A stretch of DNA of 64,000 nucleotides, taken from Bacteroidota bacterium (GTDB lineage: Bacteria; Bacteroidota; Bacteroidia; B-17B0; Aurantibacillaceae). Positions 16,794 to 32,513 of the stretch are shown here, in pieces. The position numbers were made by a program, and so were the translations under genes. The stretch lies in the NCBI GenBank assembly GCA_021156365.1, contig JAJNDK010000002.1:372001-436000 (forward strand). Direction: 5' to 3'. The notes under the pieces were generated by a model. It was not told where the DNA came from, did no database searches, and saw nothing but the letters and a program-made list of their open reading frames with translations. Each line of letters begins with the position of its first letter. Position 1 is the stretch's first letter.

Positions 16794-16948
16794 TTAACCG
16801 CAAAGAGCACGAAGTGAAATGCCCGCAGAGAACGCAAAGAGGAGTGTGTTTTGTAATTTTTGAGTGACTGCTTTTCGATCATTTTTATTGTTGGGAAAAG
16901 TAAAGTCAAAACAGGATGGGGAAAAATCTTTGTGTTCTTTGCGGTTAA
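16794..16948. repeat. long inverted repeat with CGCAAAGA units between convergent genes
   Basis: TTAACCGCAAAGAGCACGAA at 16794-16813 is mirrored at 16928-16948 as the inverse of TTAACCGCAAAGAACACAAA; 19 of 21 bases agree over the arms. Between them is CGCAGAGAACGCAAAG (16824-16839), which recurs at 43584-43599 with one difference. The right arm includes the TAA stop of the DUF72 gene. The element lies in the convergent spacer after the hydroxylase gene and could end both transcripts. Confidence 0.65.
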
Positions 16949-17847
16949 AATAATTCTTCCTTAAAATCTTTGCTGTATGGTTTAGGAGCGCTCAGCTTCT
17001 TATGCAAATAGGGATTTAGCTTTTTTATAAAATACTCCGCCAGCGGAACGGTATGTGTTTTATCATGCAGGTGCAGAAAAAAGTAAAGTGTCTCAAGCCC
17101 GTTATCGATCCATTCGGTGCAGCGGACTATCCATTCATCCAGTCGTTGGTAATCGGTAGGATGAAGATCGTGTGCCTGAAAACGGACCATGGCTGTTTTA
17201 TTGGTGAGCCGCATATGCAGGATATCACGACGGCCCGCCACATCGGTGATCACGAGTCCCATTTTCTTTTTGTACAGGAAATTGCTCAGTTCCCTGAGAT
17301 CATCCGGTTGTGCGAACCAGTCCGGGTGGCGTAATTCTACCGATAAGTGTACAGGGTTGATGTAATCAAGAAAGTGCATCAGTGTATCTTTTCCTTTGGC
17401 AGAAAAGGTAGGCGGCAATTGCAGGAAAAGTGTACCGAGATTTTCTCCCAGCCCGGAAACGGATTCAATAAAATAATTCATCTCCGGGATCGTTTCTTCC
17501 AGCCGGATGGAATGACTGATCGTTTGCGGAACTTTGGGACAGAATTTGAACTGCTCGTTCACTGCTTTTTTCCATTTTTGTACGGTGGATGCTTCCGGAA
17601 TTTTGTAATGCGTTGCATTCAGCTCGATGCAGTTGAACTGACGCGCATAATATTTCAGGTAGGAAGAAGTTTTTACAGAAGCCGGATACAGGCTTCCTAT
17701 GTAGCCGGGGTCGGCCCACACAGGCGCGCCAACATATACTTTTAACGCGCCGCTTCTCTCTCCGCCCAGTACCTTGTTTACACCGGGGTGAGCGGCAGGC
17801 AACGAGAAATCGACGTCTTCAATATGCGGTAGTTTTCCGAAATCCAT
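16945..17847 (-). CDS. DUF72 family protein
   Basis: A 300-residue TIM-barrel-like protein of the DUF72/YecE family. Hallmarks: KVYVGAPVWADPGYIGSLYP, then YARQFNCIELNATHYKIP, FKFCPKVPQTISH, GTLFLQLPPTF, HLSVELRHPDW and YFFLHLHDK. Function is not established in the family. It starts on the last base of the nuclease gene's stop codon, so it belongs to the XRE-S24/nuclease transcript. That makes it a candidate damage-inducible gene. Confidence 0.85.
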   Translation of the reverse strand: MDFGKLPHIEDVDFSLPAAHPGVNKVLGGERSGALKVYVGAPVWADPGYIGSLYPASVKTSSYLKYYARQFNCIELNATHYKIPEASTVQKWKKAVNEQFKFCPKVPQTISHSIRLEETIPEMNYFIESVSGLGENLGTLFLQLPPTFSAKGKDTLMHFLDYINPVHLSVELRHPDWFAQPDDLRELSNFLYKKKMGLVITDVAGRRDILHMRLTNKTAMVRFQAHDLHPTDYQRLDEWIVRCTEWIDNGLETLYFFLHLHDKTHTVPLAEYFIKKLNPYLHKKLSAPKPYSKDFKEELF

Positions 17848-19250
17848 TACTCTTCGAAGTATTCAGTGGCTGTTGTTTTCCTTCCGAAATTCACTTTCCT
17901 GTACTTGTTCTTTTTGCACCAGCTCCGGATCAGGTCGTTTGTATCGGGATAATAATGATTGAGCTTCACAACATCACGGATCTCATCGACACTGTTTGCT
18001 TGTGTATACTGGTCGATGTAGCCGTAACCGGCATATTTCCGGTCTTCTATTAATACAACGGAACGCTCTTCGTGTGTGCGTCCTTTTTCGATGATTACAA
18101 AATCCGGTTCTGCATATAGATATTCTTCCAGCAAGGCGTAAGCACGTTTGTTGTAATCCTCGTTGCTTTCTTCGCCACAGCAGATACCATTGCATTTTTT
18201 TATCTGGTGATTAAAACAAATACTTCCTTCACCTGTTAAGGTGCAGTATTGCAGACAAAGCGTATACGTCTCCAGCCATTGCTCCAAACGTTCTCTTGCG
18301 GTGAAATAGGTTGTATACGATACAATAGGATTTTCTGCTTCATCGCAGGGAACGATCTTAAAATTCACGATACCGTCTTTGTTCTTGAACCAGTCGATAC
18401 TGTGAGTGAACACATCCGCTTTGCGCGCACGGTTATAGCGCGGTTTATGTGTTTTTATTTCCTCCGCTTCCAACAGCAAAGCGATGAGCTCGGAGCCGGT
18501 TTCCACGAAATCCACATTCATCAATTCGTTCAGCATCTTCTTCCCTTTTTTCTCATCGGTATTAAAATGACTGAGCGCCCGGCTATACATGTTGATGCTT
18601 TTCCCGATGTAGATGATCTTGCCGTCCTTATCCAGAAAGTAATACACACCGCAGCTTTCCGGCAATTTATTGAGAATGTACTTTTTGATGTTATCGATGC
18701 GGCGCGTCATCAGTTCCACTACGCCCTGGTTCTTGTATTGCGGATGCACGCTTTTTAATTCCATTAAGAGATCAAATAGCTTGGCAGTTGCCACCGCATC
18801 TCCTTCCGCCCGGTGCCTGCCTTCGATCTCGATCCCTAAGGAAGCGCACAAATGCCCTAAACTGTAAGAGATCCGACCCGGCATTAATTTACGCCCCAGG
18901 CGAACGGTGCAGAGCGTTTCCTTTTTGTATTTGTAACCCAGCGAATTGAATTCATCTTTCACAAAGCTATAATCAAAGCCGACATTATGTGCTACAAACA
19001 CACAGCCTTCCGTACGTTCAATGATTTCTTTTGCTACTTCATGGAATTTCGGTGCGTCAGCCACCATATCATTGGTGATCCCGGAAATGTTGGAAAAATA
19101 GCCGGAGATATGACATTCAGGATTGATGAGACTGGTCCATACATCCACCACTGCCAGCCCATCGTGCCGTACAATACAGATCTCAATGATCCTCCCTTTC
19201 CGGAAATCAAATTTTCCCCCGCAGGTTTCTATGTCTATTATTGCAAACAT
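17847..19250 (-). CDS. DnaQ-like 3'-5' exonuclease fused to a GIY-YIG (UvrC/Cho-like) nuclease
   Basis: A 467-residue two-domain nuclease. The N-terminal DEDDh exonuclease (residues 1-165) has MFAIIDIETCGG, VFVAHNVGFDYSF and HRAEGDAVATAKL. The GIY-YIG domain follows at about residues 195-290 (GVYYFLDKDGKIIYIGKS and then RALSHF), and a UvrC-like cysteine segment (CLQYC, CFNHQIKKCNGICCG) lies near 380-415. Fusions of this kind resemble Cho, the SOS-induced UvrC homologue that incises damaged DNA, plus a trimming exonuclease. It is 58 bases after the XRE-S24 repressor gene and overlaps the DUF72 gene by one base. Confidence 0.88.
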   Translation of the reverse strand: MFAIIDIETCGGKFDFRKGRIIEICIVRHDGLAVVDVWTSLINPECHISGYFSNISGITNDMVADAPKFHEVAKEIIERTEGCVFVAHNVGFDYSFVKDEFNSLGYKYKKETLCTVRLGRKLMPGRISYSLGHLCASLGIEIEGRHRAEGDAVATAKLFDLLMELKSVHPQYKNQGVVELMTRRIDNIKKYILNKLPESCGVYYFLDKDGKIIYIGKSINMYSRALSHFNTDEKKGKKMLNELMNVDFVETGSELIALLLEAEEIKTHKPRYNRARKADVFTHSIDWFKNKDGIVNFKIVPCDEAENPIVSYTTYFTARERLEQWLETYTLCLQYCTLTGEGSICFNHQIKKCNGICCGEESNEDYNKRAYALLEEYLYAEPDFVIIEKGRTHEERSVVLIEDRKYAGYGYIDQYTQANSVDEIRDVVKLNHYYPDTNDLIRSWCKKNKYRKVNFGRKTTATEYFEE

Positions 19251-19308
19251 GATTATTTCTGGTTACGGGTTTCTTGTTTTACGTATTCCAACAAGAAACG
19301 CGCAATAA

Positions 19309-20073
19309 CTAACTTTTTCTAATACTCTGTATTTCCACCTTCATGCTTTTCAGCATATTCATCAGGCTGTCCATATTGATCTCTTCTTCTTTTTTGTCGG
19401 ACATATTGATACAGCAGACAAATTCCCAGATCTCCAGCACGTCTTTTGCTTTCACGGGATAAGGTGAATAGGTTTTATTGTCGGAATGTAATTCGAGAAT
19501 GCTTTGATTATTGCCTTTGAAAACACGTTTGTACACGAGGCCTTCATCTTTGGTAATGAGTACATAGGTATTGCCGTTGCGGATGTCGCTTACGGATTCT
19601 ACGTATTTGCCTACTACGTAAGAACCGTCTTTCAGAGGCAACATGGAATCGCCTTTGATGGGAAAGGTGCGATGTTTGCCGGTAATTTTGAAGGGTAAAT
19701 TCATCTGGGGTAATTTTTCGATATACTCCGGATCGGCATAACCATTCAAATATCCTGCCGAAGCTTTTACCGTTACCACTTCTATGCAATCGTTATTGTC
19801 CTGGTTGATGAGTACCGGGAATAAAATGCGGTTCTTCCCCACCTTCATCAGCGCATCCGGATCGGTTTTCCGAAGGTCGGCACGCACCAGCGCATCAATG
19901 GAAATATGGAAAAAGTCGGCGATCTTAATGAGTAATTCGATCGGTGGCTCATTCCTGTCTTCCTCATAGGCTCCCAGGCGGCCACGGGTAATGTCCAGTT
20001 CGTAGGCCAGGGTTTCCTGGGAAATTTTCTTCAGGTCCCTGAGCACTTTGATATTAGAAGCGATATTTACCAT
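19309..20073 (-). CDS. XRE-type HTH repressor with S24/LexA-like autoprotease domain
   Basis: A 254-residue regulator. Residues 4-62 form an XRE helix-turn-helix (SQETLAYELDITRGRLGAYE). Residues 100-215 form a LexA/CI-type S24 domain: a putative Ala106-Gly107 scissile bond in KASAGYLNGY, the nucleophile Ser143 in IKGDSMLPL and the general base Lys182 in LVYKRVF. The 36- and 39-residue spacings are close to those of LexA. A short Met/Glu-rich tail follows. It heads an operon with a DnaQ/GIY-YIG nuclease and DUF72. Its start codon overlaps an operator-like sequence that is repeated before dinB, so it is likely the SOS-type repressor of both arms, relieved by self-cleavage. That role is inferred. 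Confidence 0.88.
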   Translation of the reverse strand: MVNIASNIKVLRDLKKISQETLAYELDITRGRLGAYEEDRNEPPIELLIKIADFFHISIDALVRADLRKTDPDALMKVGKNRILFPVLINQDNNDCIEVVTVKASAGYLNGYADPEYIEKLPQMNLPFKITGKHRTFPIKGDSMLPLKDGSYVVGKYVESVSDIRNGNTYVLITKDEGLVYKRVFKGNNQSILELHSDNKTYSPYPVKAKDVLEIWEFVCCINMSDKKEEEINMDSLMNMLKSMKVEIQSIRKS

Positions 20074-20092
20074 TGCTACAATTTATAGTACA
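20072..20092 (-). promoter_or_regulatory. operator-like site at the XRE-S24 start, matching the dinB operator
   Basis: TTGCTACA-ATT-TATAGTAC (20073-20091) matches the site before dinB at 16 of 21 aligned bases and is itself an imperfect palindrome (5 of 9 arm positions). It covers the start codon, the leader and the end of the -7 box, the ideal place for autorepression. Confidence 0.65.
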
Positions 20093-20098
20093 AAAATA
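20091..20098 (-). promoter_or_regulatory. -7 promoter box for the XRE-S24/nuclease/DUF72 operon
   Basis: TATTTTTG on the minus strand, exact TAnnTTTG match, 18-25 bases upstream of the ATG at 20073 and touching the operator. Confidence 0.5.
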
Positions 20099-20285
20099 CT
20101 ACATTTTGTTGCAATCGTATATTTTGGCCCGGATTTTTTTTGAGTTTTGCTATTTACCTCAAAAAAAATTGTATTTACCGTATTCGGCAACTTTTAAAGA
20201 TACGGATTCGTAGATAATAAGCAGTTACTACCATTAATTCGGCTGTTTGCTGACTTTGAATCATTTATAACCAAAGCAAACCTGT

Positions 20286-23200
20286 ATGAAATCAACGATT
20301 ATTATTCTACTTCTGTTGCTTAGCGTCTTAAGCCAGAAAATATATGCACAGTGTGGGCCGGCAACTCCCACTTTTACGGTAAACCTGACCGGAAATCCTT
20401 CCGCCATATGGAACAGCCCCTTTGTAATACGGAACGACAATTGTTGCGGAACCTCAGCACCTGATCGTTGTGTTAAATTCATTATTACGCTTGATCCCGC
20501 AGCTGTCGGTGTAAATTTTAATATAGTAGACGGCGCTGTCCCCGGTGGAGCGCTTTTTTACCAGATCAATTGCGGTCCTCCCTCAGCACTGGGTAGTCCC
20601 ATCTGTTTGTCAGGTCCTGGCCCTCACATTCTTACGTTCTGTAAACCGGGGAATAATGATAATGTGTACCAGATCTCCTCAATACCGGCAGCAACTACCG
20701 GTACCAATATCGTTATTAATGATGGATGTATCGGCCATATAACTGCTACAGGCTTCAATGCTTCCACAGCTGTATGGAATTCTGTTTTTCCCGGTACCCC
20801 GGGGCAATACAATAGTTACCTTTCCTGCACCAGCGGTTGTTTGAATCCAACCGTAACAGGATCGGGAACTCCGCCTCCTTTTGTTGATTACGTAGTATGC
20901 GGACAACCCGCTGCCAATTGCAATTTTGGTACAATCTGCGATACGATCCGGGTGACCTTTAATCCTACTCTCGGTGTAACGATCGTTCCGCAAAACCCAA
21001 CTATTTGTTTCGGACAAACGGCCACTTCGTTGACTGCAAATGGCAGCGGGGGAACACCTCCCTATTCGTATTTATGGAATAATGTAGTTCCTGCACAAAC
21101 GATCAATGTGGGTGTAGGTACATACAACGTTCAGCTATCCGATGCTTCGGGTTGTCCGCCTGTATTTAATTCTGTAACAGTTACTGCTTTTTCGGTAGCC
21201 ATAACAGCCAATGCCGGACCCGATCAGACAAAATGTTCGCAAAGCCCCTCAGCCACCATCAATGCCAGTGTAGCAGGTGCAAGCGGCGGGATCTGGTCAG
21301 GCGGCGGAGGAACATTCAGTCCTGCCAATACTACGCTTGCCAATATGGTGTATACACCCACAGCAGCAGAAGTCACAAGCGGACATGCAGACCTTTACCT
21401 GACCACAACCGGCAACGGAACCTGTACTCCCGATGTGGATACTATACGCATAAATTACCTGCCCTTTACAGGTACTATTACACCGGTTGCTACCAATGTG
21501 AGCTGCTTCGGGGGAACCAACGGAACTGCAGGCGTTACCATTGCTGGTGGTTCGTCCCCGTACCTGTATAATTGGAACACCGTGCCTCTTCAAACCACAC
21601 AAACAGCAAGCAATCTCCCGCAGGGAACATACACTGTTTCTATAACAGATGGAATCGGCTGTACTTCCCAAACAACTGTTACAGTGACCCAACCTACGCC
21701 GCTTGCCCTGGCTTCCTCCATAACAAATGTTTCCTGTGCGGGTGGAAGCAACGGATCTGTTGCTATCACAGCATCAGGTGGTACTCCGGGTTATACCTAT
21801 CTATGGAGCCCGGGTGGACAAACAAGTGCAAGCGCTTCCGGATTAATAGCAGGTGTTTATACAGTTACGGTTCGTGATCTTAATAACTGTCAGACAAGCG
21901 GCACTTACACTGTTACTCAGCCGACAGTGCTTACAGCAAGTATAAGCCCGGCACCTGTCAGCTGTTTTGGCGGAAGTAACGGAAGTGCAACCACTGTTGC
22001 TGCAGGAGGGACCAGTCCCTATACCTATTCATGGAGTCCCGGTTCTGCTACTTCGCCTACGGCAACAGGTCTGACAGCGGGCCCGTATACGGTTACAGTT
22101 ACCGATGCTCACAACTGTATAATTACTGCCACTACTTCCATTACTTCACCCCCTCAATTAACTGCTGCCGTCAACTCCACAAATGAAACCTGTGATTATT
22201 TGAATAATGGTACTGCTTCAGCTATTGTTACAGGTGGTGTTTCGCCTTACACTTATCTGTGGCAACCAGGGGGACAAAATACAGTATCCGTCTCTTCGTT
22301 AGCTGCAGGCACCTATTCGGTAGTAGTAACGGATGCCAGAAATTGTACAGTCACTGCATTTGCCACTATTACACAGCCCAACCCGTTGGTGGCTACTTTC
22401 GGTCCCTTTTCCCATGTAAGCTGTTTCGGCGGGAATAATGGCTCCGCCACAGCGAACGGTAGCGGCGGTACTCCCGGGTATACCTTCAACTGGATGCCGG
22501 GATCGATCAATAACGCAACTGCAACAGGCATACAGGCCGGCACTTATACTGTTACATTAACAGACAACAACTCTTGCCAGTCTACCGGCACAATAACCAT
22601 AACACAACCAACCGCTGCTCTTGCTGTGAATGCAAACGTGACAAATGCTTCCTGCGCAGGAGGCAGTAATGGTTCTGTAGCAAGTACGGTTTCCGGCGGA
22701 ACTGCACCTTACACCTATCTCTGGAACCCGGGCGCACAAACAGGCACTACGGCAACCAATCTCAGCAGCGGTGCTTATTCGCTCACCGTTACGGATTCAA
22801 AAGGATGTATTATTTCGGCTACTTATACTGTCACACAACCGGCTCCTTTAAATGTCTCCCTTACCCCTTCTCCTGCCAATTGTTTTGGTTCAAGCACAGG
22901 AAGCATCAACAGCATAGTAAACGGAGGTACTGTTCCTTATGCTTATTCCTGGTCACCCGGAAGTGCCAGCGGTCCTTCTGTGTCCGGATTGGCAGCAGGT
23001 ACCTACAGCGTAACTATAACAGACAATTTAAATTGTATAATAGCTGCATCTGCAAGTATAACCGAACCGGCCGTACTATTTGTTTCGGCAAGCGCTACCA
23101 ATGAAACCTGTAATTATCTCAACAATGGTATAGCGACTTCCGCTGTAAGCGGTGGAACGGGGCCTTATACCTACTCATGGGCACCTGGCGGAGCAACGAG

Positions 23201-26200
23201 CCCATCCATACTTTCACAAGCAAGCGGAACATATACTGTAACCGTAACAGATGCAAGAGGATGTGTTGCGAATACCACCACTACTATTAATGAGCCACCT
23301 GCTCTGAACATTTCATTTGTCAACCAGGTAAATGTGGCTTGTTTTGGCGGCAATACGGCTTCGGTGGGTTCGGCTATAAATGGGGGAACACCTAATTACA
23401 CATATAACTGGCAGCCGGGCACCATGGCTACAGCCAATGTCTCCAATCTCTCCGTAGGAACATATACACTGACTATTACAGATGCACAAAATTGTGTGGC
23501 ACAAAATACGCTTGCCATTACACAACCAGCCCAGGCTTTATCGGTAGGCGCTACATCCAATCCAACAACTTGTTTTAACGGAGCTGACGGTACAGCGACT
23601 GCACTTGCCGCAGGAGGAACAATCCCGTATACAAACTTCAGCTGGCAACCCGGAAATCTAAGCGGATCAATAGTTAACGGAATAGCCGCAGGTACATATA
23701 CCGTAACGGCAACCGATGCAAATGCCTGTGTAGCCACGAATACAATTGTCGTGAACCAACCTGCGGCTATTATTCCTGTCACATCTACAATTAACTCCAC
23801 CTGCAATTTATCGAACGGACAGGCTTCTGTTTCCGTAAGCGGAGGCATCGCGCCATACACCTATACCTGGTCGCCTACCGGGGGGAATGCTACAACCGCT
23901 ACGGGATTACTTGCCGGGCCTTACATGGTTTTTGTTACGGATGCAAACGGATGTGCTGCTTCCCAGTTTGCTAATGTCAATGATCTGGGTGGGCCTCAGG
24001 CCAGTATTTTTTCCACTACCAACGTTTCCTGCTTTGGAGGCTCGGATGGATCTGCAACAGTAGGATTGGCAGGAGGAACAGGGCCTTTTATTTATCAATG
24101 GACACCTCTTGGCGGAAATGCCCCAACTGCTATAGGTTTGTCGGCAGGTATATATACCATTACTGTCACGGATAACAATGGCTGTGTTTCTTCGGCCACC
24201 ACAAGTCCGCCTATTACAGAGCCTCCTGCATTAGCAGCGGTTATAACCACCGGTAATGTAAGTTGTTTTGGAGGAAGTAATGGCAGTGCATCAATTGTAG
24301 CCAGCGGGGGAACGCCCGGTTATGTATTTACCTGGCTACCGGGCAATACTAACGGTGCCGCTGTGAGCAATCAAACAGCAGGAACTTATTCGGTAAATAT
24401 TACGGATACTAAAAATTGTTTATTACAACAAACATATACTATTGCTCAGCCTTCAACACCTTTATCTGTAACCGCGGCTTCTAATCCTGCCCTCTGTTTC
24501 GGCACCAACAGTGGGAGCGCCTCCTCTGCAGCAGCAGGTGGTACGGGTCCTTATAATTATTCCTGGTTGCCCGGCAATACCAGCGGACAGACTATTTCCA
24601 ATCTTGGTGCAGGAACATATACGGTAAATGTAGTGGATAACCAGGGATGTCCGGCTTCAAATTCCACAACGGTAAGCGAACCCACCGATGTAACGCTTAC
24701 GGTCTCTACGCAGAATTCAACCTGCGGGGGTGCTAATGGGCAGGCTTCCGTAGTGGCAAGCGGCGGAACGCCCGGATTTTCCTATACCTGGATCCCTAAC
24801 GGCGGGAATACTAATATAGCAACAGGATTGGTAAGCGGCAGTTATACTGTTAGCGTAAGTGACAATAATGGTTGCCTCGAAATTGGTAATATAGTGGTGA
24901 ACAATACTCCGGGACCCGGAGCCTCTGTTACTGCCACTTCCAATGTTTCCTGTGATGGCGGATCTGATGGAACCGCCACTGTAACCGTCACGGGTGGCAC
25001 GGGAACCATGGGTTATTTCTGGGCTCCGGTAGGTGGTAACGCTGCTACCGGTACCGGTCTTTCTGCCGGGATCTATACCGTTACCGTTACAGATGATAAC
25101 GGATGCCAGATACAGGCTACGAGTCCGCAGATCACACAGCCTACTTCCGTTTCGGTTAATGTGGTAGCAGCTGCAGTAAGCTGTTTTGGAGGTAGCAACG
25201 GAGTAGCAAGCGCGGCGGCATCGGGCGGAACACCCGCTTACACGTATCTCTGGACACCCGGCAATATCGCAGGAGCATCCATAAGCGGGTTGAGCGCAGG
25301 CAGCTACACAGTAAGAGCAACAGATAGTAAAGGTTGTATACAAAATCAGACAGTAACCGTTTCACAACCTGCGAGCGCAGTATCCGTATCTGCTGTTACC
25401 AGTGCTGTCTCCTGTTTTGGAGGCAGCAACGGATCGGCGACTGCAAGCGCTTCCGGAGGAACAGGTCCTTACATGTATATCTGGAATCCCGGCAATGTTG
25501 CCGCCTCTTCTCACACAGGCTTAAGTGCCGGAACGTATACCGTAAACGTAACAGACAATAATGGTTGTCTTACAAATACCACAGTAGTTGTAAGCCAGCC
25601 TGTACAGTTTCTGTCTGCAACTGCCGATGGTGACTCCACTGCCTGCTTTGGCGGATCGGACGGTTCGGCAACGGTGACCCCTGCCGGCGGAACTCCCGGT
25701 TACACCTATCTGTGGACTCCTTCCGGAATAACAACACAAACTGCAGCCGGACTGAATTCCGGTAACTATATTGTGTTGGTTACCGATCTGAACGGCTGCC
25801 AGACCAACACATCTGTTTCCATCGGGCAGCCCACCCAGGTGAGCGGCACACTTATCAAAACAGATCCATCCTGTGGTTTGTCAAATGGTATTATCGTTTC
25901 TCAGATCTCAGGCGGCACGGGCCCATACTCATACCTCTGGTCGCCTGGCGCTTCCATCCAGTCTTCAATAAATGCCGTGGGGCCGGGCAACTATACACTA
26001 CAGGTAACGGATGCGCTCGGATGTGTTCAGACATTTACAACAACGCTTACCAATATTGCCGGGCCATCAGTCGCAGTTACCAATACCACACTGGTATCCT
26101 GTAACGGTGGAAGTGATGGAACTGCAAGTGTTTCCATAAGCCAGGGAACATTGCCCTATACTGTTTCATGGGCACCTGCAGGCGGCAATTCTACTACAGC

Positions 26201-28046
26201 TACAGGATTATTTGCTTCCACCTATACAGTAAGTATTACAGATGGATTGAATTGTCCTTCTACTGCTACTCTCACTATTTCAGAACCTACACCGCTAAGT
26301 ATCACGATCAGCTCTACAACCAATGCCTTGTGTAATGGAGCGGCAGATGGAACAGCAACAGTAAGTGCATCCGGCGGAACCCCGTCCTATACATACCAGT
26401 GGGCATTCCCGGTAAACAGCACTTTGCCTTCTGTAGGTGGTCTTTCAGCAGGCACATACATCGTCAATGCCTTCGATCAGAATAATTGTCCCCATGCCAT
26501 TTCTGTTACAATCACAGAACCTGCTCCGCTTGCCGGGTCCATCGGATCGTTGATCAATCCAACCTGTTTCAATGGACTGGGATCCGCAAGTGTACTGGCC
26601 TCCGGAGGTACCATCCCCTACAGCTATTCATGGAATACAAATCCTTTACAAACAAATAATACGGCTATTGATCTGGCTAATGGTTCTTACCAGGTAACAG
26701 TTACAGATGCCAATGGCTGTACAAATGTAGTTACGACTTCCATTACACAGCCTGCGCAGGTACTGACCCTTGGTGGCAATAATGATACGATCTGCATCGG
26801 GTCATCTGCTACTATTACCGCAAATGCAAGCGGGGGGACAGGAAATTATACCTACGCATGGCAGCCTGCAGGCACTATAAGCGCTGGCAGCCTGACTGCC
26901 AGCCCGACTGTTAACAGCTCCTATATTGTTATTGCCTATGATCAGAATGGTTGTCAGGGAATCCCGGATACCATTGATGTAATAGTATACAGTTTAAGCT
27001 CTTCTGATGTGGAAGCCGTAGGTAATACACCTATTTGTCCGGGAACCGCTTCCACGATCTATGCCCAGGCGAGTGGCAACACAGGCCCTTTAACATATAG
27101 CTGGAGTAATGGTCTTGGCAGCGGACCGGGATCCTTCCAGGTGATCCTGAACCAGCCAACCAATTACATAGTAACTGTTTCCAATACCTGCGCCGTTACT
27201 GTTACGGATACTGTTTCCATTCTGTTCAATCCGCAACCCACGATCCTGATAGATCCTGATACCAACAGGATCTGTATTCCCGGTATCGTTCAATTCAATG
27301 ACCTGTCGGTTTCAGGTAACACCTCGGATCCTATCACTTCCTGGTTTTGGAGCTTTGGAGATGGAAGCACTTCTACCCTGCAAAATCCTTCGCATACGTA
27401 TACCAATACGGGGACATACAATATAAGCCTCATTGTAAGCACCAATGGAGGATGTATAAGCAATAGCGCCGGCGCTCCCTATACGATCAATGCCTATCCG
27501 GTGCCCGTAGCCGGGTTTACGATCAGTGACAACTCACTGACCTTACCTTTCGAAACATTAAATTGCATTAATACGTCTTCCGGGGCTATCAGCTATAGCT
27601 GGGACTTTGGCGATGGCGGAAGCTCAACGCTGGTTAACCCGCATCATACATATAATTCCGTAGGAACTTTCACTGTTCAGCTCATTTCTACCAATCAATA
27701 CGGTTGTTCTGATACGGAGATAAAAGATGTGATCACGGATGCTGATGTTATTTTTCCGAATGCTTTTTCTCCGGGTTTTGAAGGCGGTAACGGTGGATCC
27801 TATAATTACAATGATTTAAGCAACGATGTCTTTTTCCCCTTTACTTCAGGGGTAACCGATTACAAATTACAGATCTTCAACAGATGGGGAGAGCTTATAT
27901 TTGAGTCCCTGGATGTTAAAATAGGTTGGGACGGATACTACAGGGGACAGGTTTGTCAACAGGATGTTTATATATGGAAAGCTTATCTAAAATTAAACAA
28001 CGGCAAAACATATGATCTGGTGGGAGATGTAACGCTTTTACAATAA
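20286..28046 (+). CDS. giant SprB-repeat surface protein with type B (gliding-associated) C-terminal domain
   Basis: A 2586-residue secreted protein. Order: signal peptide (residues 1-22), a unique Cys-rich N-terminal region to about 250, two divergent Ig-like units to about 400, about 23 SprB repeats of 75-78 residues (404-2165), one or two Ig-like units, two PKD domains (about 2319-2400 with WFWSFGDGST and 2405-2485 with YSWDFGDGGS), and a gliding-motility-associated C-terminal domain (2487-2586) with DVIFPNAFSPG, YKLQIFNRWGELIFES and the GWDGYYRG turn. SprB-type adhesins are exported by the type IX system and moved on the cell surface in gliding. Low charge and high Thr/Ser/Gly fit an extracellular fibre. 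It lies between the two arms of the putative damage regulon. No exact -7 box is seen; TGACTTTG at 20251-20258 has one mismatch. Confidence 0.9.
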   Translation: MKSTIIILLLLLSVLSQKIYAQCGPATPTFTVNLTGNPSAIWNSPFVIRNDNCCGTSAPDRCVKFIITLDPAAVGVNFNIVDGAVPGGALFYQINCGPPSALGSPICLSGPGPHILTFCKPGNNDNVYQISSIPAATTGTNIVINDGCIGHITATGFNASTAVWNSVFPGTPGQYNSYLSCTSGCLNPTVTGSGTPPPFVDYVVCGQPAANCNFGTICDTIRVTFNPTLGVTIVPQNPTICFGQTATSLTANGSGGTPPYSYLWNNVVPAQTINVGVGTYNVQLSDASGCPPVFNSVTVTAFSVAITANAGPDQTKCSQSPSATINASVAGASGGIWSGGGGTFSPANTTLANMVYTPTAAEVTSGHADLYLTTTGNGTCTPDVDTIRINYLPFTGTITPVATNVSCFGGTNGTAGVTIAGGSSPYLYNWNTVPLQTTQTASNLPQGTYTVSITDGIGCTSQTTVTVTQPTPLALASSITNVSCAGGSNGSVAITASGGTPGYTYLWSPGGQTSASASGLIAGVYTVTVRDLNNCQTSGTYTVTQPTVLTASISPAPVSCFGGSNGSATTVAAGGTSPYTYSWSPGSATSPTATGLTAGPYTVTVTDAHNCIITATTSITSPPQLTAAVNSTNETCDYLNNGTASAIVTGGVSPYTYLWQPGGQNTVSVSSLAAGTYSVVVTDARNCTVTAFATITQPNPLVATFGPFSHVSCFGGNNGSATANGSGGTPGYTFNWMPGSINNATATGIQAGTYTVTLTDNNSCQSTGTITITQPTAALAVNANVTNASCAGGSNGSVASTVSGGTAPYTYLWNPGAQTGTTATNLSSGAYSLTVTDSKGCIISATYTVTQPAPLNVSLTPSPANCFGSSTGSINSIVNGGTVPYAYSWSPGSASGPSVSGLAAGTYSVTITDNLNCIIAASASITEPAVLFVSASATNETCNYLNNGIATSAVSGGTGPYTYSWAPGGATSPSILSQASGTYTVTVTDARGCVANTTTTINEPPALNISFVNQVNVACFGGNTASVGSAINGGTPNYTYNWQPGTMATANVSNLSVGTYTLTITDAQNCVAQNTLAITQPAQALSVGATSNPTTCFNGADGTATALAAGGTIPYTNFSWQPGNLSGSIVNGIAAGTYTVTATDANACVATNTIVVNQPAAIIPVTSTINSTCNLSNGQASVSVSGGIAPYTYTWSPTGGNATTATGLLAGPYMVFVTDANGCAASQFANVNDLGGPQASIFSTTNVSCFGGSDGSATVGLAGGTGPFIYQWTPLGGNAPTAIGLSAGIYTITVTDNNGCVSSATTSPPITEPPALAAVITTGNVSCFGGSNGSASIVASGGTPGYVFTWLPGNTNGAAVSNQTAGTYSVNITDTKNCLLQQTYTIAQPSTPLSVTAASNPALCFGTNSGSASSAAAGGTGPYNYSWLPGNTSGQTISNLGAGTYTVNVVDNQGCPASNSTTVSEPTDVTLTVSTQNSTCGGANGQASVVASGGTPGFSYTWIPNGGNTNIATGLVSGSYTVSVSDNNGCLEIGNIVVNNTPGPGASVTATSNVSCDGGSDGTATVTVTGGTGTMGYFWAPVGGNAATGTGLSAGIYTVTVTDDNGCQIQATSPQITQPTSVSVNVVAAAVSCFGGSNGVASAAASGGTPAYTYLWTPGNIAGASISGLSAGSYTVRATDSKGCIQNQTVTVSQPASAVSVSAVTSAVSCFGGSNGSATASASGGTGPYMYIWNPGNVAASSHTGLSAGTYTVNVTDNNGCLTNTTVVVSQPVQFLSATADGDSTACFGGSDGSATVTPAGGTPGYTYLWTPSGITTQTAAGLNSGNYIVLVTDLNGCQTNTSVSIGQPTQVSGTLIKTDPSCGLSNGIIVSQISGGTGPYSYLWSPGASIQSSINAVGPGNYTLQVTDALGCVQTFTTTLTNIAGPSVAVTNTTLVSCNGGSDGTASVSISQGTLPYTVSWAPAGGNSTTATGLFASTYTVSITDGLNCPSTATLTISEPTPLSITISSTTNALCNGAADGTATVSASGGTPSYTYQWAFPVNSTLPSVGGLSAGTYIVNAFDQNNCPHAISVTITEPAPLAGSIGSLINPTCFNGLGSASVLASGGTIPYSYSWNTNPLQTNNTAIDLANGSYQVTVTDANGCTNVVTTSITQPAQVLTLGGNNDTICIGSSATITANASGGTGNYTYAWQPAGTISAGSLTASPTVNSSYIVIAYDQNGCQGIPDTIDVIVYSLSSSDVEAVGNTPICPGTASTIYAQASGNTGPLTYSWSNGLGSGPGSFQVILNQPTNYIVTVSNTCAVTVTDTVSILFNPQPTILIDPDTNRICIPGIVQFNDLSVSGNTSDPITSWFWSFGDGSTSTLQNPSHTYTNTGTYNISLIVSTNGGCISNSAGAPYTINAYPVPVAGFTISDNSLTLPFETLNCINTSSGAISYSWDFGDGGSSTLVNPHHTYNSVGTFTVQLISTNQYGCSDTEIKDVITDADVIFPNAFSPGFEGGNGGSYNYNDLSNDVFFPFTSGVTDYKLQIFNRWGELIFESLDVKIGWDGYYRGQVCQQDVYIWKAYLKLNNGKTYDLVGDVTLLQ
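21495..26780 (+). repeat. array of about 23 SprB repeats (~228 bases each)
   Basis: Each unit opens with a Val-Ser-Cys-Phe-Gly-Gly type turn, continues with Asn-Gly-(Ser/Thr)-Ala, then GGTxPYTYxWxPG, and closes with AGTYTVTVTDxxGC and a Gln-Pro boundary. Codon choice varies strongly between units, so the array is old, with a few closer pairs. Two unit types alternate locally: ones starting NETCxYLNNG (units 4 and 8) and ones starting STC without the Phe-Gly-Gly (units 11, 15, 20). Confidence 0.9.
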
Positions 28047-28104
28047 AATTATCGACTTTCGCAGCTAGCGATCAATTAAATTTCCACATACAAAGACAAG
28101 TCGG

Positions 28105-28130
28105 GGCAATAAATGGTGCTATTGCCTTTT
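28105..28130 (+). terminator. Rho-independent terminator after the SprB-repeat gene
   Basis: GGCAATA (28105-28111), eight-base loop, TATTGCC (28120-28126), then TTTT. A perfect seven-base stem, 59 bases after the stop codon. Confidence 0.7.
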
Positions 28131-28187
28131 ATCCGCCAACGGTCCCCTAGCTCGCCCAGGATAAAAGCAAAATAGTTAAATTTTCGA

Positions 28188-28208
28188 ATTGCTATAAATT
28201 ATAGCAAT
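28188..28208 (+). promoter_or_regulatory. palindromic operator before dinB-dnaE
   Basis: TTGCTATAAATTATAGCAA (28189-28207), extended by one more A/T pair on each side to a perfect nine-base palindrome with a three-base centre. A diverged version overlaps the start of the XRE-S24 repressor. It lies 48 bases before the dinB ATG, just upstream of a TATGTTTTG sequence (28216-28224) that resembles a -7 box with one extra spacer base. Confidence 0.7.
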
Positions 28209-28255
28209 ACCAACCTATGTTTTGTGGTACCTTAGCCACACCTAATGATCGCAGC

Positions 28256-29434
28256 ATGGACCGCAGTATTGTACACATCGACCTGGATTCTTTTTTCGTA
28301 TCGGTAGAACGGAAGATCAATTCCAAACTTGTCGGCCTGCCTGTATTGGTGGGCGGTTCCAGCGACCGGGGTGTAGTCGCTTCCTGCAGCTATGAGGCCC
28401 GCAGCTATGGGATCCACTCTGCCATGCCGATGAAAATGGCCAAACAGCTGTGCCCACATGCAGTGGTAGTGAGAGGCGACACGGAGCAATACAGTTATTA
28501 TTCCAACATGATCACGGATATTATCCGGGAAGATGTGCCTGTGTATGAAAAGACTTCCATTGATGAATTTTATATCGACCTCAGCGGAATGGATCGTTTT
28601 TTCGGTTCCTATAAAATGGCTACCGAGTTGCGGCAAAAGATCACGAAAGAAAGCGGACTGCCCATTTCCTTTGCCATGTCGCCCAACAAAACCGTATCGA
28701 AAGTAAAAACAGGAGAAGTGAAGCCCAACGGGCAAGGACAGATCCTGCAAGGAGAAGAAAAAGGATTCCTGGCGCCGCTCTCGATCCGGAAGATCCCGAT
28801 GGTAGGCGATAAAACCTATCAAACCCTTCGTGATATGGGCATTGTGTGGATCCGCACCCTGCAGGAAATGCCGGTGGAACTGCTGCAGCAGGTACTAGGG
28901 GAGAACGGCGGCGTGATCTGGAGAAAAGCCAATGGCATTGATAATTCACCGGTAGAGCCCTACTCCGAACGTAAATCCATTTCTACGGAACAAACCTTTG
29001 AAAAAGATACGATCGATGTGAAAGCATTGAAAGAAGTGTTGGTGAGTATGGCCGAAAAATTAGCTTTTCAATTACGCAGCGAAGAAAAACTGACGGCCTG
29101 CATAACCGTGAAGATCCGCTACTCGGATTTTAATACCTATACCCAGCAAATGAAAATTCCCTACACATCACTGGATCACACGCTGATCGAACGGGTAAAA
29201 GAACTTTTTGACAAGCTGTACCAGAAACGTATGCTGATCCGCCTGATCGGGATCCGCTTCAGCCATTTGGTGCAGGGCAATTACCAGTATAATATGTTCG
29301 AGGATACTACAGAACAGATCCAGCTCTACCAGGCCATGGACCTGATCCGCAAACGATACGGCAACGGTGCCATCACCCGCGCGGTAGGAATGGATAAACG
29401 GCATAGTAATTTTAATCCTTTTGGAAAAGGGTAG
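28256..29434 (+). CDS. dinB: Y-family DNA polymerase (Pol IV/DinB-like)
   Basis: A 392-residue translesion polymerase. Catalytic acidic residues are intact: VHIDLDSFFVSVE at the N-terminus and YEKTSIDEFYIDLSG near residue 100. The LPISFAMSPNKTVSKVKTGEVKPNG stretch and the thumb/little-finger region with SISTEQTFEKDTID are typical. The ATG at 28256 is chosen over an in-frame ATG 39 bases upstream because homology begins at MDRSIVHIDLD. It is followed by dnaE 67 bases downstream on the same strand. Intact acidic residues argue against the inactive ImuB class. The palindromic operator upstream suggests control by the XRE-S24 repressor. Confidence 0.92.
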   Translation: MDRSIVHIDLDSFFVSVERKINSKLVGLPVLVGGSSDRGVVASCSYEARSYGIHSAMPMKMAKQLCPHAVVVRGDTEQYSYYSNMITDIIREDVPVYEKTSIDEFYIDLSGMDRFFGSYKMATELRQKITKESGLPISFAMSPNKTVSKVKTGEVKPNGQGQILQGEEKGFLAPLSIRKIPMVGDKTYQTLRDMGIVWIRTLQEMPVELLQQVLGENGGVIWRKANGIDNSPVEPYSERKSISTEQTFEKDTIDVKALKEVLVSMAEKLAFQLRSEEKLTACITVKIRYSDFNTYTQQMKIPYTSLDHTLIERVKELFDKLYQKRMLIRLIGIRFSHLVQGNYQYNMFEDTTEQIQLYQAMDLIRKRYGNGAITRAVGMDKRHSNFNPFGKG

Positions 29435-29469
29435 TCCCGATAGCTATCGGGATCGGGTTTCGGGTTTCT
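29432..29469 (+). repeat. 38-base dispersed palindromic repeat, copy 2
   Basis: TAG (the dinB stop codon) followed by TCCCGATAGCTATCGGGA (29435-29452, perfect palindrome) and TCGGGTTTCGGGTTTCT. Differs from copy 1 at two of 38 bases. It fills most of the dinB-dnaE spacer and could form a hairpin that lowers readthrough into dnaE. Confidence 0.8.
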
Positions 29470-29501
29470 TATTGCGGGCTCAAAACAGAACTAAAATAAA
29501 A

Positions 29502-32500
29502 ATGTTACTTAATTGTCATACCTATTACAGCTTTTGCTATGGGACGCTTTCCGTACAGGAATTCCTATTAGAGATCCGGAAGAATGGGTATGCTGAATTT
29601 GTGATCAGCGACATCAACAATACTTCTGCCTGCCTCGAGCTCTTCCGTATCAGCGGAGAGCAGGGACTAAAACCCATTGCAGGGATCGATTTCCGGAACG
29701 GCATCCGGCAGAAATATGTAGGCATCGCAAAAAACAATACCGGTTTTTCACAGCTCAACGAACACTTGTCAGAACACCTGCGCCAGGAAAAAGAATTCGA
29801 AGACAATGCTCCGGCAGCTGATCTGAATGAGACATTTATCATTTACCCTTTTGCTTCCTACAAAGGCCAAGTTTTACAGGAGAATGAATTTATCGGTGTG
29901 TCTGTCAAAGATCTTTCCTCCTATTCTTTTTTAAGCAGCAAATGGCCACAGGAAAAAATGGTGGTATTGCAGGCCGCTACCTTTTCCACCAAGCGGCAAT
30001 TCAATGCGCATCGCTTGTTGCGGGCCATCGCCAACAATACCTTACTCAGTATGCTGCCCGCTACCGAACAGGCTACGCCGGATGAATTATTCATTCCGAA
30101 GGAAGAACTGTACAAAGCATTTGAATCACACCCTGTTATTATACAGAACACCGAAAATATCCTGGAAGCCTGTTACATTCATTTTGAATTCGGGAAATTT
30201 GCAAACAAGAACCTGCAATACTATACCGGCAGCATGGAAGAAGACATGGCTTTGTTGCGCAGCGAATGCCAGAAAGGGATCCGTTACCGCTTCGGTGATA
30301 CACCAGCCAAAGAAGTAAGTGAACGGATCGAAAAAGAATTACAGATCATCGAGCAGATGAAATTTGCTTCTTATTTCCTCATCAACTGGAACATCATTAG
30401 TTATGCGCAAAGCAAAGATTATTATTATGTAGGAAGAGGAAGTGGAGCCAACAGCATCGTTGCCTACCTGCTGCGGATAACGGATGTGGATCCCCTCGAG
30501 TTGGACCTTTACTTCGAGCGGTTCATCAATCCGCACCGCGCCAATCCACCGGATTTTGATATTGATTTTTCCTGGACCGACCGGGATGATATCACCGACT
30601 ATATTTTCAGGACATTCGGTTCCGATAAATGTGCATTGGTAGGCACCTACAGTTCTTTCCAGGAAGATGCCGCATTGCGTGAGTTGGGAAAAGTATTCGG
30701 CCTGCCACCCGAAGAAATTGACAAGCTCCAGAATCCATATAAATACCCGGACGTGGACGAGCTCGGAAAACAAGTGAAACGCTACAGCGAAATGATCAAA
30801 GGTTTCCCACGGCATGTAAGCATTCACGCCAGCGGTATCCTGATCTCGCAAGAACCCATTACCAATTACTGTGCTACCAACATGCCTCCGAAAGGCTATC
30901 CTACCACACAGTTCAGTATGATAGAAGCGGAAGATATCGGCCTGTACAAATTCGATATCCTGAGCCAGCGCGGACTTGGAAAAATAAAAGACTCCCTGCA
31001 GATCATTAAAGAGAACAGAGGTGCGGAGATCGATATTCACCAGGTAGCACAATTCAAAGAGGACGAAAAGGTAAAAGACCTGCTGCGCGAAGGAAAAACT
31101 ATCGGTTGTTTTTATGTGGAATCTCCTGCCATGCGGATGCTGCTGAAAAAACTCCGGGCCGATGATTACCTGCGATTGGTAGCAGCCAGTTCCATTATCC
31201 GTCCCGGTGTTTCCAAAAGCGGGATGATGCGCGAATACATTCTGCGTTTCCGCAACGAAGAACTACAGGAAAAAGCCCGCGCGCAATTGCCGGCTTTCTA
31301 CGACCTGCTGAAGGAAACCTATGGCGTGATGGTATACCAGGAAGATGTGATCAAGATCGCGCATTTTTTTGCAGACCTCTCCCTTGCCGAAGCAGACTAC
31401 CTGCGAAGAGGTATGTCCTGGAAGTTCAAGCAACGTGATGAGTTCTTCCGGGTGCGGGAGCTCTTCATCAACAACTGCCGCAAAAAAGGATACGAGGAAC
31501 AGTTCATTCAGAATGTGTGGATACAGATCGAAAGCTTTGCCAATTTTGCTTTTTCAAAAGGTCACTCTGCAAGTTATGCCGTAGAAAGTTACCAGGCACT
31601 CTACCTGAAAGCCTATTTCCCGCTTGAGTACATGGTAGCCACGCTAAATAATGGCGGTGGCTTTTACCGGATCGAACTGTATGTACACGAGGCGCGCCTT
31701 CACGGTGCCGACATTCAAACTCCCTGCATCAACAACAGCGCGATCCTCTCGGTAATAAAAGACAAAACCATTTACCTCGGCTTCCAGCTCATTGCCGGGC
31801 TAGAACAACAGGCATTCAAAGCTGTGATCGCAGAAAGAGAACGGAACGGCCCGTTTGCAGACTTGTATGATTTTGTAAAACGTGTGCCTTTGTCGTTGGA
31901 ACAAATGCGTATTCTCACAAGAGCCGGAGCTTTTGCTTTCACCGGCCGGAATAAAAAAGAATTGTTGTGGGAGCTGCACACGATGGTTGCACCGGTTAAA
32001 AAGAAAGATGCCACAGCTCTTGCTTTCGGAGGAGAAGAGCCGTCCCTGTTTGACCTCAGCCCGAAAAAATTCCAGTTACCCGTACTCAGCACCAATCCAT
32101 TTGATGAAGCATTCGACGAAATGGAATTTTTTGGGTTTTCCCTGTCCTCACCTTTTATGCTATTGCGTGATCCGGTTAGTCATACGCTCACCGCTTCGCA
32201 ATTGCACCTACATCAAAACAAAACTGTGACGATCATCGGTTACCTGGTGAATATAAAAACAACTTACACCTCCAAAAACGACCGGATGAATTTCGGGACT
32301 TTCATAGATACGGATGGTGACTGGATCGACACGGTACATTTCCCTCCTTCTGCAAAGCAGTATCCCTTCAGTGGGCCTGGTTGTTACCAGCTTACAGGAA
32401 AAGTAGTGACGGAGTATGATTTCACAACAATAGAAGTGGAACAGATGCAGCGACTCGCATTGGTAGACAGGGAAACGATGAGTGAGAAAACAGTTTCGGA

Positions 32501-32513
32501 TTTATCCGCTTAA
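29502..32513 (+). CDS. DNA polymerase III alpha subunit, second (DnaE2-like) copy
   Basis: A 1003-residue C-family polymerase, shorter than a replicative DnaE. The PHP domain at residues 1-200 is degenerate at its first motif (NCHTYYSFCYGT in place of HxHSxxSxxDG). The polymerase core is intact: YYVGRGSGANSIVAYLL near 335 and PPDFDIDFSWTDRDD near 370 with the catalytic Asp residues. A C-terminal OB-fold (IIGYLVNIKTTYTSKNDRM) follows. The start ATG at 29502 is chosen because similarity begins at MLLNCHTYY. The context with dinB and an S24 repressor points to damage-tolerance synthesis. The last four bases overlap the convergent kinase gene. Confidence 0.88.
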   Translation: MLLNCHTYYSFCYGTLSVQEFLLEIRKNGYAEFVISDINNTSACLELFRISGEQGLKPIAGIDFRNGIRQKYVGIAKNNTGFSQLNEHLSEHLRQEKEFEDNAPAADLNETFIIYPFASYKGQVLQENEFIGVSVKDLSSYSFLSSKWPQEKMVVLQAATFSTKRQFNAHRLLRAIANNTLLSMLPATEQATPDELFIPKEELYKAFESHPVIIQNTENILEACYIHFEFGKFANKNLQYYTGSMEEDMALLRSECQKGIRYRFGDTPAKEVSERIEKELQIIEQMKFASYFLINWNIISYAQSKDYYYVGRGSGANSIVAYLLRITDVDPLELDLYFERFINPHRANPPDFDIDFSWTDRDDITDYIFRTFGSDKCALVGTYSSFQEDAALRELGKVFGLPPEEIDKLQNPYKYPDVDELGKQVKRYSEMIKGFPRHVSIHASGILISQEPITNYCATNMPPKGYPTTQFSMIEAEDIGLYKFDILSQRGLGKIKDSLQIIKENRGAEIDIHQVAQFKEDEKVKDLLREGKTIGCFYVESPAMRMLLKKLRADDYLRLVAASSIIRPGVSKSGMMREYILRFRNEELQEKARAQLPAFYDLLKETYGVMVYQEDVIKIAHFFADLSLAEADYLRRGMSWKFKQRDEFFRVRELFINNCRKKGYEEQFIQNVWIQIESFANFAFSKGHSASYAVESYQALYLKAYFPLEYMVATLNNGGGFYRIELYVHEARLHGADIQTPCINNSAILSVIKDKTIYLGFQLIAGLEQQAFKAVIAERERNGPFADLYDFVKRVPLSLEQMRILTRAGAFAFTGRNKKELLWELHTMVAPVKKKDATALAFGGEEPSLFDLSPKKFQLPVLSTNPFDEAFDEMEFFGFSLSSPFMLLRDPVSHTLTASQLHLHQNKTVTIIGYLVNIKTTYTSKNDRMNFGTFIDTDGDWIDTVHFPPSAKQYPFSGPGCYQLTGKVVTEYDFTTIEVEQMQRLALVDRETMSEKTVSDLSA

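Follow-up and report, generated by a model that had tools for sequence, protein, structure and literature searches.

The DNA analysed here, called the window, is a stretch of 64,000 nt from a Bacteroidota bacterium of the Aurantibacillaceae (assembly GCA_021156365.1, contig JAJNDK010000002.1, positions 372,001 to 436,000). It harbors two gene units of interest. The first, on the reverse strand, starts with the gene of a 254-residue XRE-S24 repressor (19309-20073), followed by that of a DnaQ-like exonuclease combined with a GIY-YIG (UvrC/Cho-like) nuclease (17847-19250) and, with a 1-bp overlap, by that of a DUF72 protein (16945-17847); the examined loci of other genomes show no DUF72 gene at this place in the operon. 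The second unit, on the forward strand, comprises the gene of the Y-family polymerase DinB (28217-29434; the start is more likely at 28256, judged from the congeners) and, behind it, a gene for a second DnaE-type polymerase alpha subunit (29421-32513). Open reading frames and domain searches agree with the description of these proteins in a previous, sequence-only reading of the window; the HIDLD and SIDE motifs of DinB are intact. An SprB-repeat adhesin of 2586 residues with 24 SprB repeats is encoded between the repressor and dinB (20286-28046, forward strand); this is a statement of location and does not imply regulon membership. DinB scores as DNA polymerase IV (PRK02406, 286.8 for a cut-off of 256), and DnaE scores 463 against the error-prone polymerase model PRK05672, below its cut-off of 939. 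The intact motifs and both scores speak against an ImuA-ImuB-DnaE2 cassette. A defence role of the nuclease operon was also rejected, since the PADLOC matches of the nuclease (candidate PDC-S48, DEDDh and an effector model) are confined to its exonuclease part.

The repressor contains an N-terminal HTH_3 domain (PF01381) and a C-terminal S24 domain (PF00717), both above the Pfam cut-offs. The winged-helix DNA-binding domain of LexA (PF01726) was not found in it by Pfam at E 0.001, HTH_3/HTH_19 being matched instead. The predicted cleavage site Ala106-Gly107 and the Ser143/Lys182 dyad are present as first proposed; these four residues are the same in all 89 distinct orthologues, and Met replaces Ala106 in a single protein (L273) among 109 distinct homologues. 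Overall, confidence in the structure model of the repressor is low (mean pLDDT 64.7, with values below 50 for residues 74-132), and its use was therefore restricted to the helix-turn-helix (HTH) helices and the domain folds. The N-terminus of the model resembles P22 c2 (Z 12.7 over 66 residues), tied with other XRE proteins, and its C-terminus resembles LexA (Z 12.8 over 112 residues). A sequence search of the PDB with the repressor returned HTH proteins only. Pfam identified three S24 matches in the genome, namely the window repressor, a 40% paralogue on contig C9 and a 105-residue ORF (L017), which appears signal-peptidase-like by eye. None of the three resembles a classic LexA; the sequence-only reading was right on this point and needs correction only in that such an absence is normal for the phylum.

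Three putative operators are located in the window. The dinB-dnaE operator, ATTGCTATAAATTATAGCAAT (28188-28208, matrix score 26.4), is a genuine palindrome, with 10-bp arms around a 1-nt centre rather than the nine-base arms described previously. Only two palindromes with arms of at least 10 bp and a centre of 0-3 nt, this one included, occur in the window, for a mean of 0.175 over 40 dinucleotide shuffles. The proximal XRE-S24 operator, TGTACTATAAATTGTAGCAAT in the coding sense (20072-20092, score 25.1), covers part of the start codon and shares the last two bases of the -7 box TATTTTTG (20091-20098, reverse strand), as had been noted; compared in the more favourable orientation, it agrees with the dinB site at 17 of 21 positions, and not at 16. 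Elsewhere in the window, none of 631 segments of 200 bp reaches 15 matches to the dinB site. The third site, ATTGCAACAAAATGTAGTATT (20095-20115, score 16.0), is degenerate, weaker and absent from the earlier account; it lies 23 bp upstream of the proximal site, so that the -7 box sits at the edge between both XRE-S24 operators. The Bacteroidetes -7 consensus is TAnnTTTG, which TATTTTTG matches exactly. The window dyads are CTAT-N5-ATAG and CTAT-N5-GTAG, and no exact CTAA-N5-TTAG dyad was seen among them.

We scored the promoters of relatives with an operator matrix trained only on 87 S24 promoters of relatives, using a score of 15 as threshold. These 87 distinct orthologous promoters contain 152 CTA-N7-TAG sites; in 64 of them two sites occur at a distance of 23 bp, and only one lacks any site. 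Among 22 scored dinB loci of relatives, 12 have an operator that reaches 15, with both congeners among them, which bears out the expected conservation of the palindrome. The nuclease gene carries an operator in 10 of 19 scored loci, all ten located away from S24, and close nuclease orthologues away from the repressor gene carry one in 9 of 9. Nuclease genes directly after S24 or one gene behind it, that of the window included, carry none (0 of 6). Of the 17 scored genomes whose repressor is of the CTA class, 12 have an operator at recA (11 reach 15 and one 14.9), compared with none of the 13 other scored genomes (Fisher p 7e-5). As a control, none of 26 PIF1-like loci of relatives reached 15 (best 12.5). 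A divergent dinB lies within 1.5 kb in 25 of the 76 loci of the named collection with more than 1.5 kb upstream, and dnaE is present in all 25. The operators found by the matrix at dinB, the nuclease gene and recA in relatives thus argue that the regulon is real, and their conservation supports the earlier proposal that the repressor, the nuclease operon and dinB-dnaE share an operator. The palindromes might also be chance or terminator-like repeats with no regulator, as could be suspected from the lack of genome-wide enrichment of loose patterns; given that position, spacing and sequence are conserved over many genomes and track the presence of the repressor, the probability of this is close to negligible.

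In the genome itself, five exact TTRCTAY-N5-RTAGYAA sites were observed for 0.27 expected. The additional exact sites precede a UvrD-like helicase gene, a PIF1-like helicase gene and an orphan ORF (L005). The congener G002, the sole relative among 37 with the UvrD-like gene at E 1e-40, lacks the site before it; no helicase site was found in G002, and L005 has no relative in the 37 genomes. These three sites were thus rejected as conserved targets, no matching sites having been found among the relatives searched, and may be recent recruits. Of six genome sites considered besides that of dinB, two are intragenic and were discarded as chance, namely L009 and L007, the latter falling where a signal peptide is encoded. 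One mismatch is found at 11 places, ten of which had loci that were inspected; an intergenic position with an AT-rich spacer was seen only for S24, C4:1014 and perhaps C12:122697. C4:1014 is 196 bp before the likely start of a replicative DnaE with a fused exonuclease. Further sites near repair genes had been anticipated, and this holds for the two DNA helicases and fails for recA; neither uvrA nor uvrB was recognised among the genes next to the inspected sites with 0-1 mismatch. The looser patterns show no enrichment (TTRCTAYNNNNNRTAGYAA at up to 2 mismatches, 246 genome places for 417 with the reversed control; RCTAHWWWWWDTAGY, 12 for 13) and cannot map the regulon, so only near-exact sites were used for this purpose.

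The usual SOS target is recA. The matrix detected no recA operator in this genome, in the congeners G001 and G002, in the sister genus G008 or in G011, contrary to what the sequence-only reading anticipated for this gene. Such an operator is common in the remainder of the family. The missing recA operator in these five genomes counts against the window gene being an SOS master repressor, as do the dinB loci below 15 (10 of 22), the unenriched loose patterns and the helicase sites missing in G002. A small detected regulon without recA could be that of a local phage-type or antitoxin-like repressor, acting on dinB-dnaE and its own operon only and unrelated to DNA damage, and HdiR and UmuDAb are examples of minimal regulons (PMC8565304). 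However, same-family orthologues have recA operators, the self-cleavage residues are conserved, and the target genes encode an error-prone polymerase and a repair nuclease, which makes a local repressor unlikely. Alternatively, the C9 paralogue, in which A-G, S, K and a CI-like HTH are all retained, could be the real SOS regulator that binds the operators, the window gene being one target among others; several such repressors indeed occur in some Bacteroidetes (PMC8565304). Yet no CTA-N7-TAG was found within 200 bp before the C9-type gene in 4 of 4 genomes, nor any other shared palindrome by eye, whereas 86 of 87 promoters of the window type carry the motif. Moreover, operators are still present at other genes in the family members G006, G007, G009 and G015, in each of which a single S24 match was found. 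We consider a leading role of the paralogue very unlikely.

We thus favor, with high confidence, that the window gene encodes an SOS master repressor, made of a CI-like HTH and a self-cleaving S24 domain, and that the window also holds two of its target units. Support at the sequence level comes from the predicted operators, their conservation, their co-occurrence with the repressor and the conserved catalytic residues; from these we infer repressor binding, self-cleavage and induction in this bacterium. A repressor dimer would bind CTAY-N5-RTAG palindromes, the pair of operators at the -7 box, 23 bp from each other, controlling the repressor-nuclease-DUF72 operon and the single operator controlling dinB-dnaE. 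Upon DNA damage, the Ser143/Lys182 dyad, prompted by RecA filaments, would cut the repressor's own Ala106-Gly107 bond. With its dimers lost, the cell would produce the nuclease, the Y-family polymerase and DnaE, and newly made repressor would eventually reset the switch. Two repair gene clusters are thus probably switched on by a phage-like repressor after DNA damage.

A non-canonical LexA SOS system of Bacteroidetes was published in 2021, with targets that include dinB-dnaE, a GIY-YIG exonuclease and the repressor itself (PMC8565304). The regulon is a member of this described system with a slightly shifted DNA target, as far as the available text of PMC8565304 allows comparison, and is in itself ordinary for the phylum. 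For relatives, binding by EMSA and induction by mitomycin C are reported, and Chitinophagaceae are named among the families with large regulons (PMC8565304). The repressor is probably an orthologue of non-canonical LexA, as judged from shared features. With Pontibacter actiniarum WP_025606010.1, of the CTAA-N5-TTAG group (PMC8565304), it shares the XRE (HTH_3) and S24 domains, Ala-Gly and Ser-Lys. Also common to this group are the N5-spacer palindrome, autoregulation, more than one motif in several promoters, and the targets dinB and DnaE, GIY-YIG exonuclease (COG0847) and, in relatives, recA. A further mark of the family, one N5-spacer palindrome common to the repressor's own promoter and that of the error-prone polymerase, is seen here as well. 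The base beside the spacer is T or C in the window lineage and A in the published group, and A-class relatives in our dataset carry CTAA; since PMC8565304 accepts diverged palindromes within the family, the CTAT dyads fall outside the narrow CTAA motif and not outside the family. The group further differs from the window genus, where no recA operator was found, and from the window, with its DUF72 gene in the operon and SprB adhesin gene before dinB. In Elizabethkingia anophelis, the gene of the non-canonical LexA likewise lies opposite an error-prone polymerase gene, both being mitomycin C inducible, and the operator TTAC-AAATT-GTAA, a diverged palindrome, has the N5 geometry with a TTAC half-site unlike that of the window (PMC8565304). 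Other S24 damage-response repressors outside LexA are HdiR (Streptococcaceae), UmuDAb (Moraxellaceae) and FddR (Francisella; PMC13148647). The published trees available do not group HdiR or FddR with the Bacteroidetes clade; FddR binds GTG-N11-CAC, and recA expression was unchanged in Francisella (PMC13148647). Canonical E. coli LexA shares with the window repressor the S24 domain, the SOS role and the expected RecA-dependent cleavage, but has a winged-helix DNA-binding domain where the latter has a CI/P22 c2-like one. New relative to the published system are the predicted CTAY-N5-RTAG operator type of this lineage, a link with residues 35 and 41, recA without a site in three genomes of the genus, and the SprB gene between the repressor and dinB.

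Position 35 belongs to the recognition helix, and position 41 to the loop that follows this helix. Repressors with S35 and C/A41 pair with CTAA-N5-TTAG in 33 of 33 cases, and those with G/A35 and N41 with CTAY-N5-RTAG in 57 of 57. Of five K35/S41 paralogues, four (L270-L273) have TGATAC-N5-GTATCA, and the T35/N41 repressor L266 (G038) has a GTTAC-N5-GTAAC palindrome before its own gene. A one-residue rule is contradicted by exceptions with S35 (mixed sites for L047, L123 and L125, GTGAT-N5-ATCAC for L268, no recognised site for L278), with A35 or G35 (the mixed case L048 and seven distant homologues that lack CTA-N7-TAG) and with K35 (L269, no recognised site). A quick tree, in which 45 of 105 inner branches are unresolved, shows three changes of operator class and three of residue 35; the residue-operator test yields one independent pair on well-supported branches, with which a sign test cannot reach significance. 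A natural operator-specificity code, in which residues 35 and 41 change with the operator and the window is one state in a traceable series of SOS operator rewiring, is a serious possibility to which we give slightly less than even chances. Our literature searches brought up no account of residue-level operator specificity in Bacteroidetes non-canonical LexA, and the term "recognition helix" does not occur in the available text of PMC8565304.

From one lineage to another, LexA-type operators vary strongly. Within the family, closely related orthologues use different operators and only a few residues accompany the difference, which makes an operator switch testable by exchanging one or two residues; the family also includes relatives with and without the recA operator. 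Should the code be true, the window would represent a lineage with its own operator state and, in addition, without a recognisable site at recA.

The XRE-S24 repressor gene (positions 19309-20073, minus strand) is followed on the same strand by genes for a DnaQ/GIY-YIG nuclease (17847-19250) and a DUF72 protein (16945-17847). The plus strand carries a SprB-repeat adhesin gene (20286-28046), dinB (28217-29434, with a start more likely at 28256) and a second dnaE that ends at 32513. The operator ATTGCTATAAATTATAGCAAT lies upstream of dinB, and TGTACTATAAATTGTAGCAAT spans the S24 gene start. The sequence-only reading, which had proposed a split SOS-like regulon with an operator common to XRE-S24 and dinB-dnaE, was correct in its coordinates and residues, and both its sites stand; it had overlooked a third, weaker site, ATTGCAACAAAATGTAGTATT, 23 bp upstream of the S24-start operator. 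These two S24 operators flank on both sides a TATTTTTG box, which from its consensus we take to be a promoter box, an arrangement in which operator occupancy should block the S24 promoter. Palindromes with arms of at least 10 occur at two places in the window versus 0.175 matches per shuffle (40 shuffles), and the S24 promoter matches the dinB site at 17 of 21 positions, with 15 of 21 reached by none of 631 other 200-bp window pieces. A chance origin of these palindromes is thus unlikely.

S24 relatives are present in 51 of the 60 genomes searched, our own included; the comparison set from the named genome collection comprises the best 80 loci. An operator matrix was built on 152 CTA-N7-TAG sites in 87 distinct promoters of S24 relatives and then run on other genes, with 15 as threshold score. 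At least two sites are found in 66 of these promoters, one in 20 and none in 1; 64 harbor a site pair 23 bp apart, and the usual positions are near -38 and -15. As a control, none of 26 PIF1-like loci of relatives reached 15. The window dinB scores 26.4 and both congeners (G001, G002) near 20. The palindrome is kept before orthologous dinB, as the sequence-only reading anticipated, in 12 of 22 relatives' loci scored over 300 bp upstream (at least 15; one further incomplete locus was left out). The ten loci under 15 are those of G003 (12.3), G020 (8.2), G023 (6.6), G011, G038, G044, G045, G048, the second dinB of G002, and the sister genus G008, where the S24-side operators are some 290-330 bp upstream, mostly outside the scan. 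By these sequence comparisons, the regulon is conserved. The dinB orthologues of G006, G018 and G041 (L216, L222, L226) contain internal stop codons; their upstream operators remain, with scores of 15.8 to 24.4.

Among relatives, 19 nuclease-gene loci were scored and 10 have an operator by the matrix, starting 51-55 bp upstream in nine of the ten. All ten genes lie apart from S24, and in G016 the operator is common to a divergent dinB. Among orthologues at least 59% identical and apart from S24, every scored locus (9/9) has the site. No own operator was detected by the matrix at the nuclease gene behind S24 in six genomes; this gene directly follows S24 in our own, G001, G008, G011 and G041, and is one gene further on in G002. 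The remaining four relatives' loci lacking a site are only distantly related (31-41% identity). In G002, the gene between repressor and nuclease in the SOS operon encodes a 538-aa KAP/YobI-like P-loop NTPase (L139 15002-16618), for which PADLOC gives no match. In G006 (L150, L250; contig C32 197108-200824), PIF1-like helicase and nuclease genes adjoin on one strand, which suggests a link between two genes that each carry this operator type in some member of the family.

Of 76 loci with more than 1.5 kb of upstream sequence, 25 have a divergent dinB no further than 1.5 kb from S24, accompanied by dnaE in all 25, and the gap in G001 is about 0.3 kb. In the window, S24 and dinB are 8.1 kb apart with the adhesin gene between them, and in G002 a larger module (L139 614-13839) separates S24 and dinB in the same relative orientation. 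It encodes a CHU_C protein, PorP/SprF, an adhesin-like protein of 2804 aa and a PD40/TPR protein; the end of the 2804-aa protein and the final 350 residues of the window adhesin share 61% identity. Given the short gap in relatives and these intervening genes, the split noted earlier probably reflects a rearrangement or insertion at this locus, around separate operators. The DUF72 gene overlaps the nuclease gene, which suggests co-transcription. DUF72 was found near S24 in 1 of 109 loci compared (L058, opposite strand), for many of which the flank is limited to 1.5 kb, and none near S24 in G001, G002 or G008. One paper notes DUF72 genes near polB2 and a TIM-barrel fold akin to that of UV-damage endonuclease (PMC11791011).

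The exact pattern TTRCTAY-N5-RTAGYAA occurs five times in our genome versus 0.27 expected under a dinucleotide model; looser patterns show no genome-wide enrichment and so do not help to map the regulon further. Besides the window dinB site, exact sites lie upstream of genes for a UvrD-like helicase (C1:192094) and a PIF1-like helicase (C10:225104) and of an orphan ORF (C20:99110; L005 3913-4629); the fifth is intragenic. The three additional pre-gene sites were not found in the relatives searched. In the orphan promoter the exact operator is joined by a TATCTTTG box and by a half-site 23 bp further along; the 216-aa product of the ORF matched nothing in Pfam, NCBIfam or PADLOC, and 37 genomes contained no relative of it. 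A one-mismatch site (C4:1014) is located 196 bp upstream of the likely start of a replicative DnaE with a fused DnaQ-type exonuclease domain (L008 1014-5691).

RecA was found in 36 genomes, and 30 loci were retrieved and scored. Of the 17 genomes with a CTA-class repressor, 12 have a recA operator (G005 scores 14.9, the other eleven over 15), versus 0 of 13 others (Fisher p 7e-5), the latter having no S24 match or no CTA-N7-TAG promoter among the S24 examined, which in G037, G040, G048 and G050 were the stronger matches. The site that the sequence-only reading expected at recA did not appear: our 3.8-kb recA locus has none scoring above 8, nor do the whole recA loci of G001, G002 and G008.

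A106-G107, S143 and K182 are unchanged in all 89 distinct orthologues. In the structure model, which is weak (mean pLDDT 64.7; at least 80 in residues 1-50), the N-terminus matches P22 c2 (Z 12.7, rmsd 1.6, 66 residues), with other XRE proteins scoring equally, and the C-terminus matches LexA (Z 12.8, rmsd 3.0, 112 residues). From the conserved cleavage residues and these folds we infer cleavage and binding, and the protein should work as a CI/LexA-type self-cleaving repressor. A second S24 repressor on contig C9 (L016 6935-7729) is 40% identical and retains A-G, S and K; no operator was found at its gene, and its type is 80-85% identical in G001, G002 and G008.

We classed operators by the base adjoining the N5 spacer, as A class (CTAA) or Y class (CTAT/CTAC, including the window). 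Among 109 distinct proteins, the A class has S35 with C/A41 in 33 of 33 and the Y class G/A35 with N41 in 57 of 57; four have mixed operators and 15 no CTA-N7-TAG site. Within these 15, K35/S41 paralogues have TGATAC-N5-GTATCA-type palindromes in four of five cases (L270-L273), a T35/N41 protein (L266) has GTTAC-N5-GTAAC and an S35/N41 protein (L268) GTGAT-N5-ATCAC; no palindrome was recognised for the rest. The G023 dinB (L217), beside a K35 paralogue, has TGATAC-N5-GTATCA instead of CTA-N7-TAG, as if this paralogue had taken over dinB. Residues 30-37 sit on the third helix of the weak model. A quick tree of the C-terminal domains shows three changes of operator class and three of residue 35, of which only one independent pair is strongly supported, so the link of residues 35 and 41 to the operator, which may be new, is a lead and no proof.

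Sanchez-Osuna et al. 2021 (PMC8565304) describe non-canonical LexA proteins of Bacteroidetes, whose motifs are CTAA-N5-TTAG and GGA-N5-TCC, and report EMSA and induction by mitomycin C, large regulons in families including Chitinophagaceae, and diverged palindromes accompanying paralogy; the repressor (COG2932), dinB, DnaE and the GIY-YIG exonuclease (COG0847) are among the regulon members listed. The window regulon is therefore a member of this already known Bacteroidetes non-canonical LexA system.
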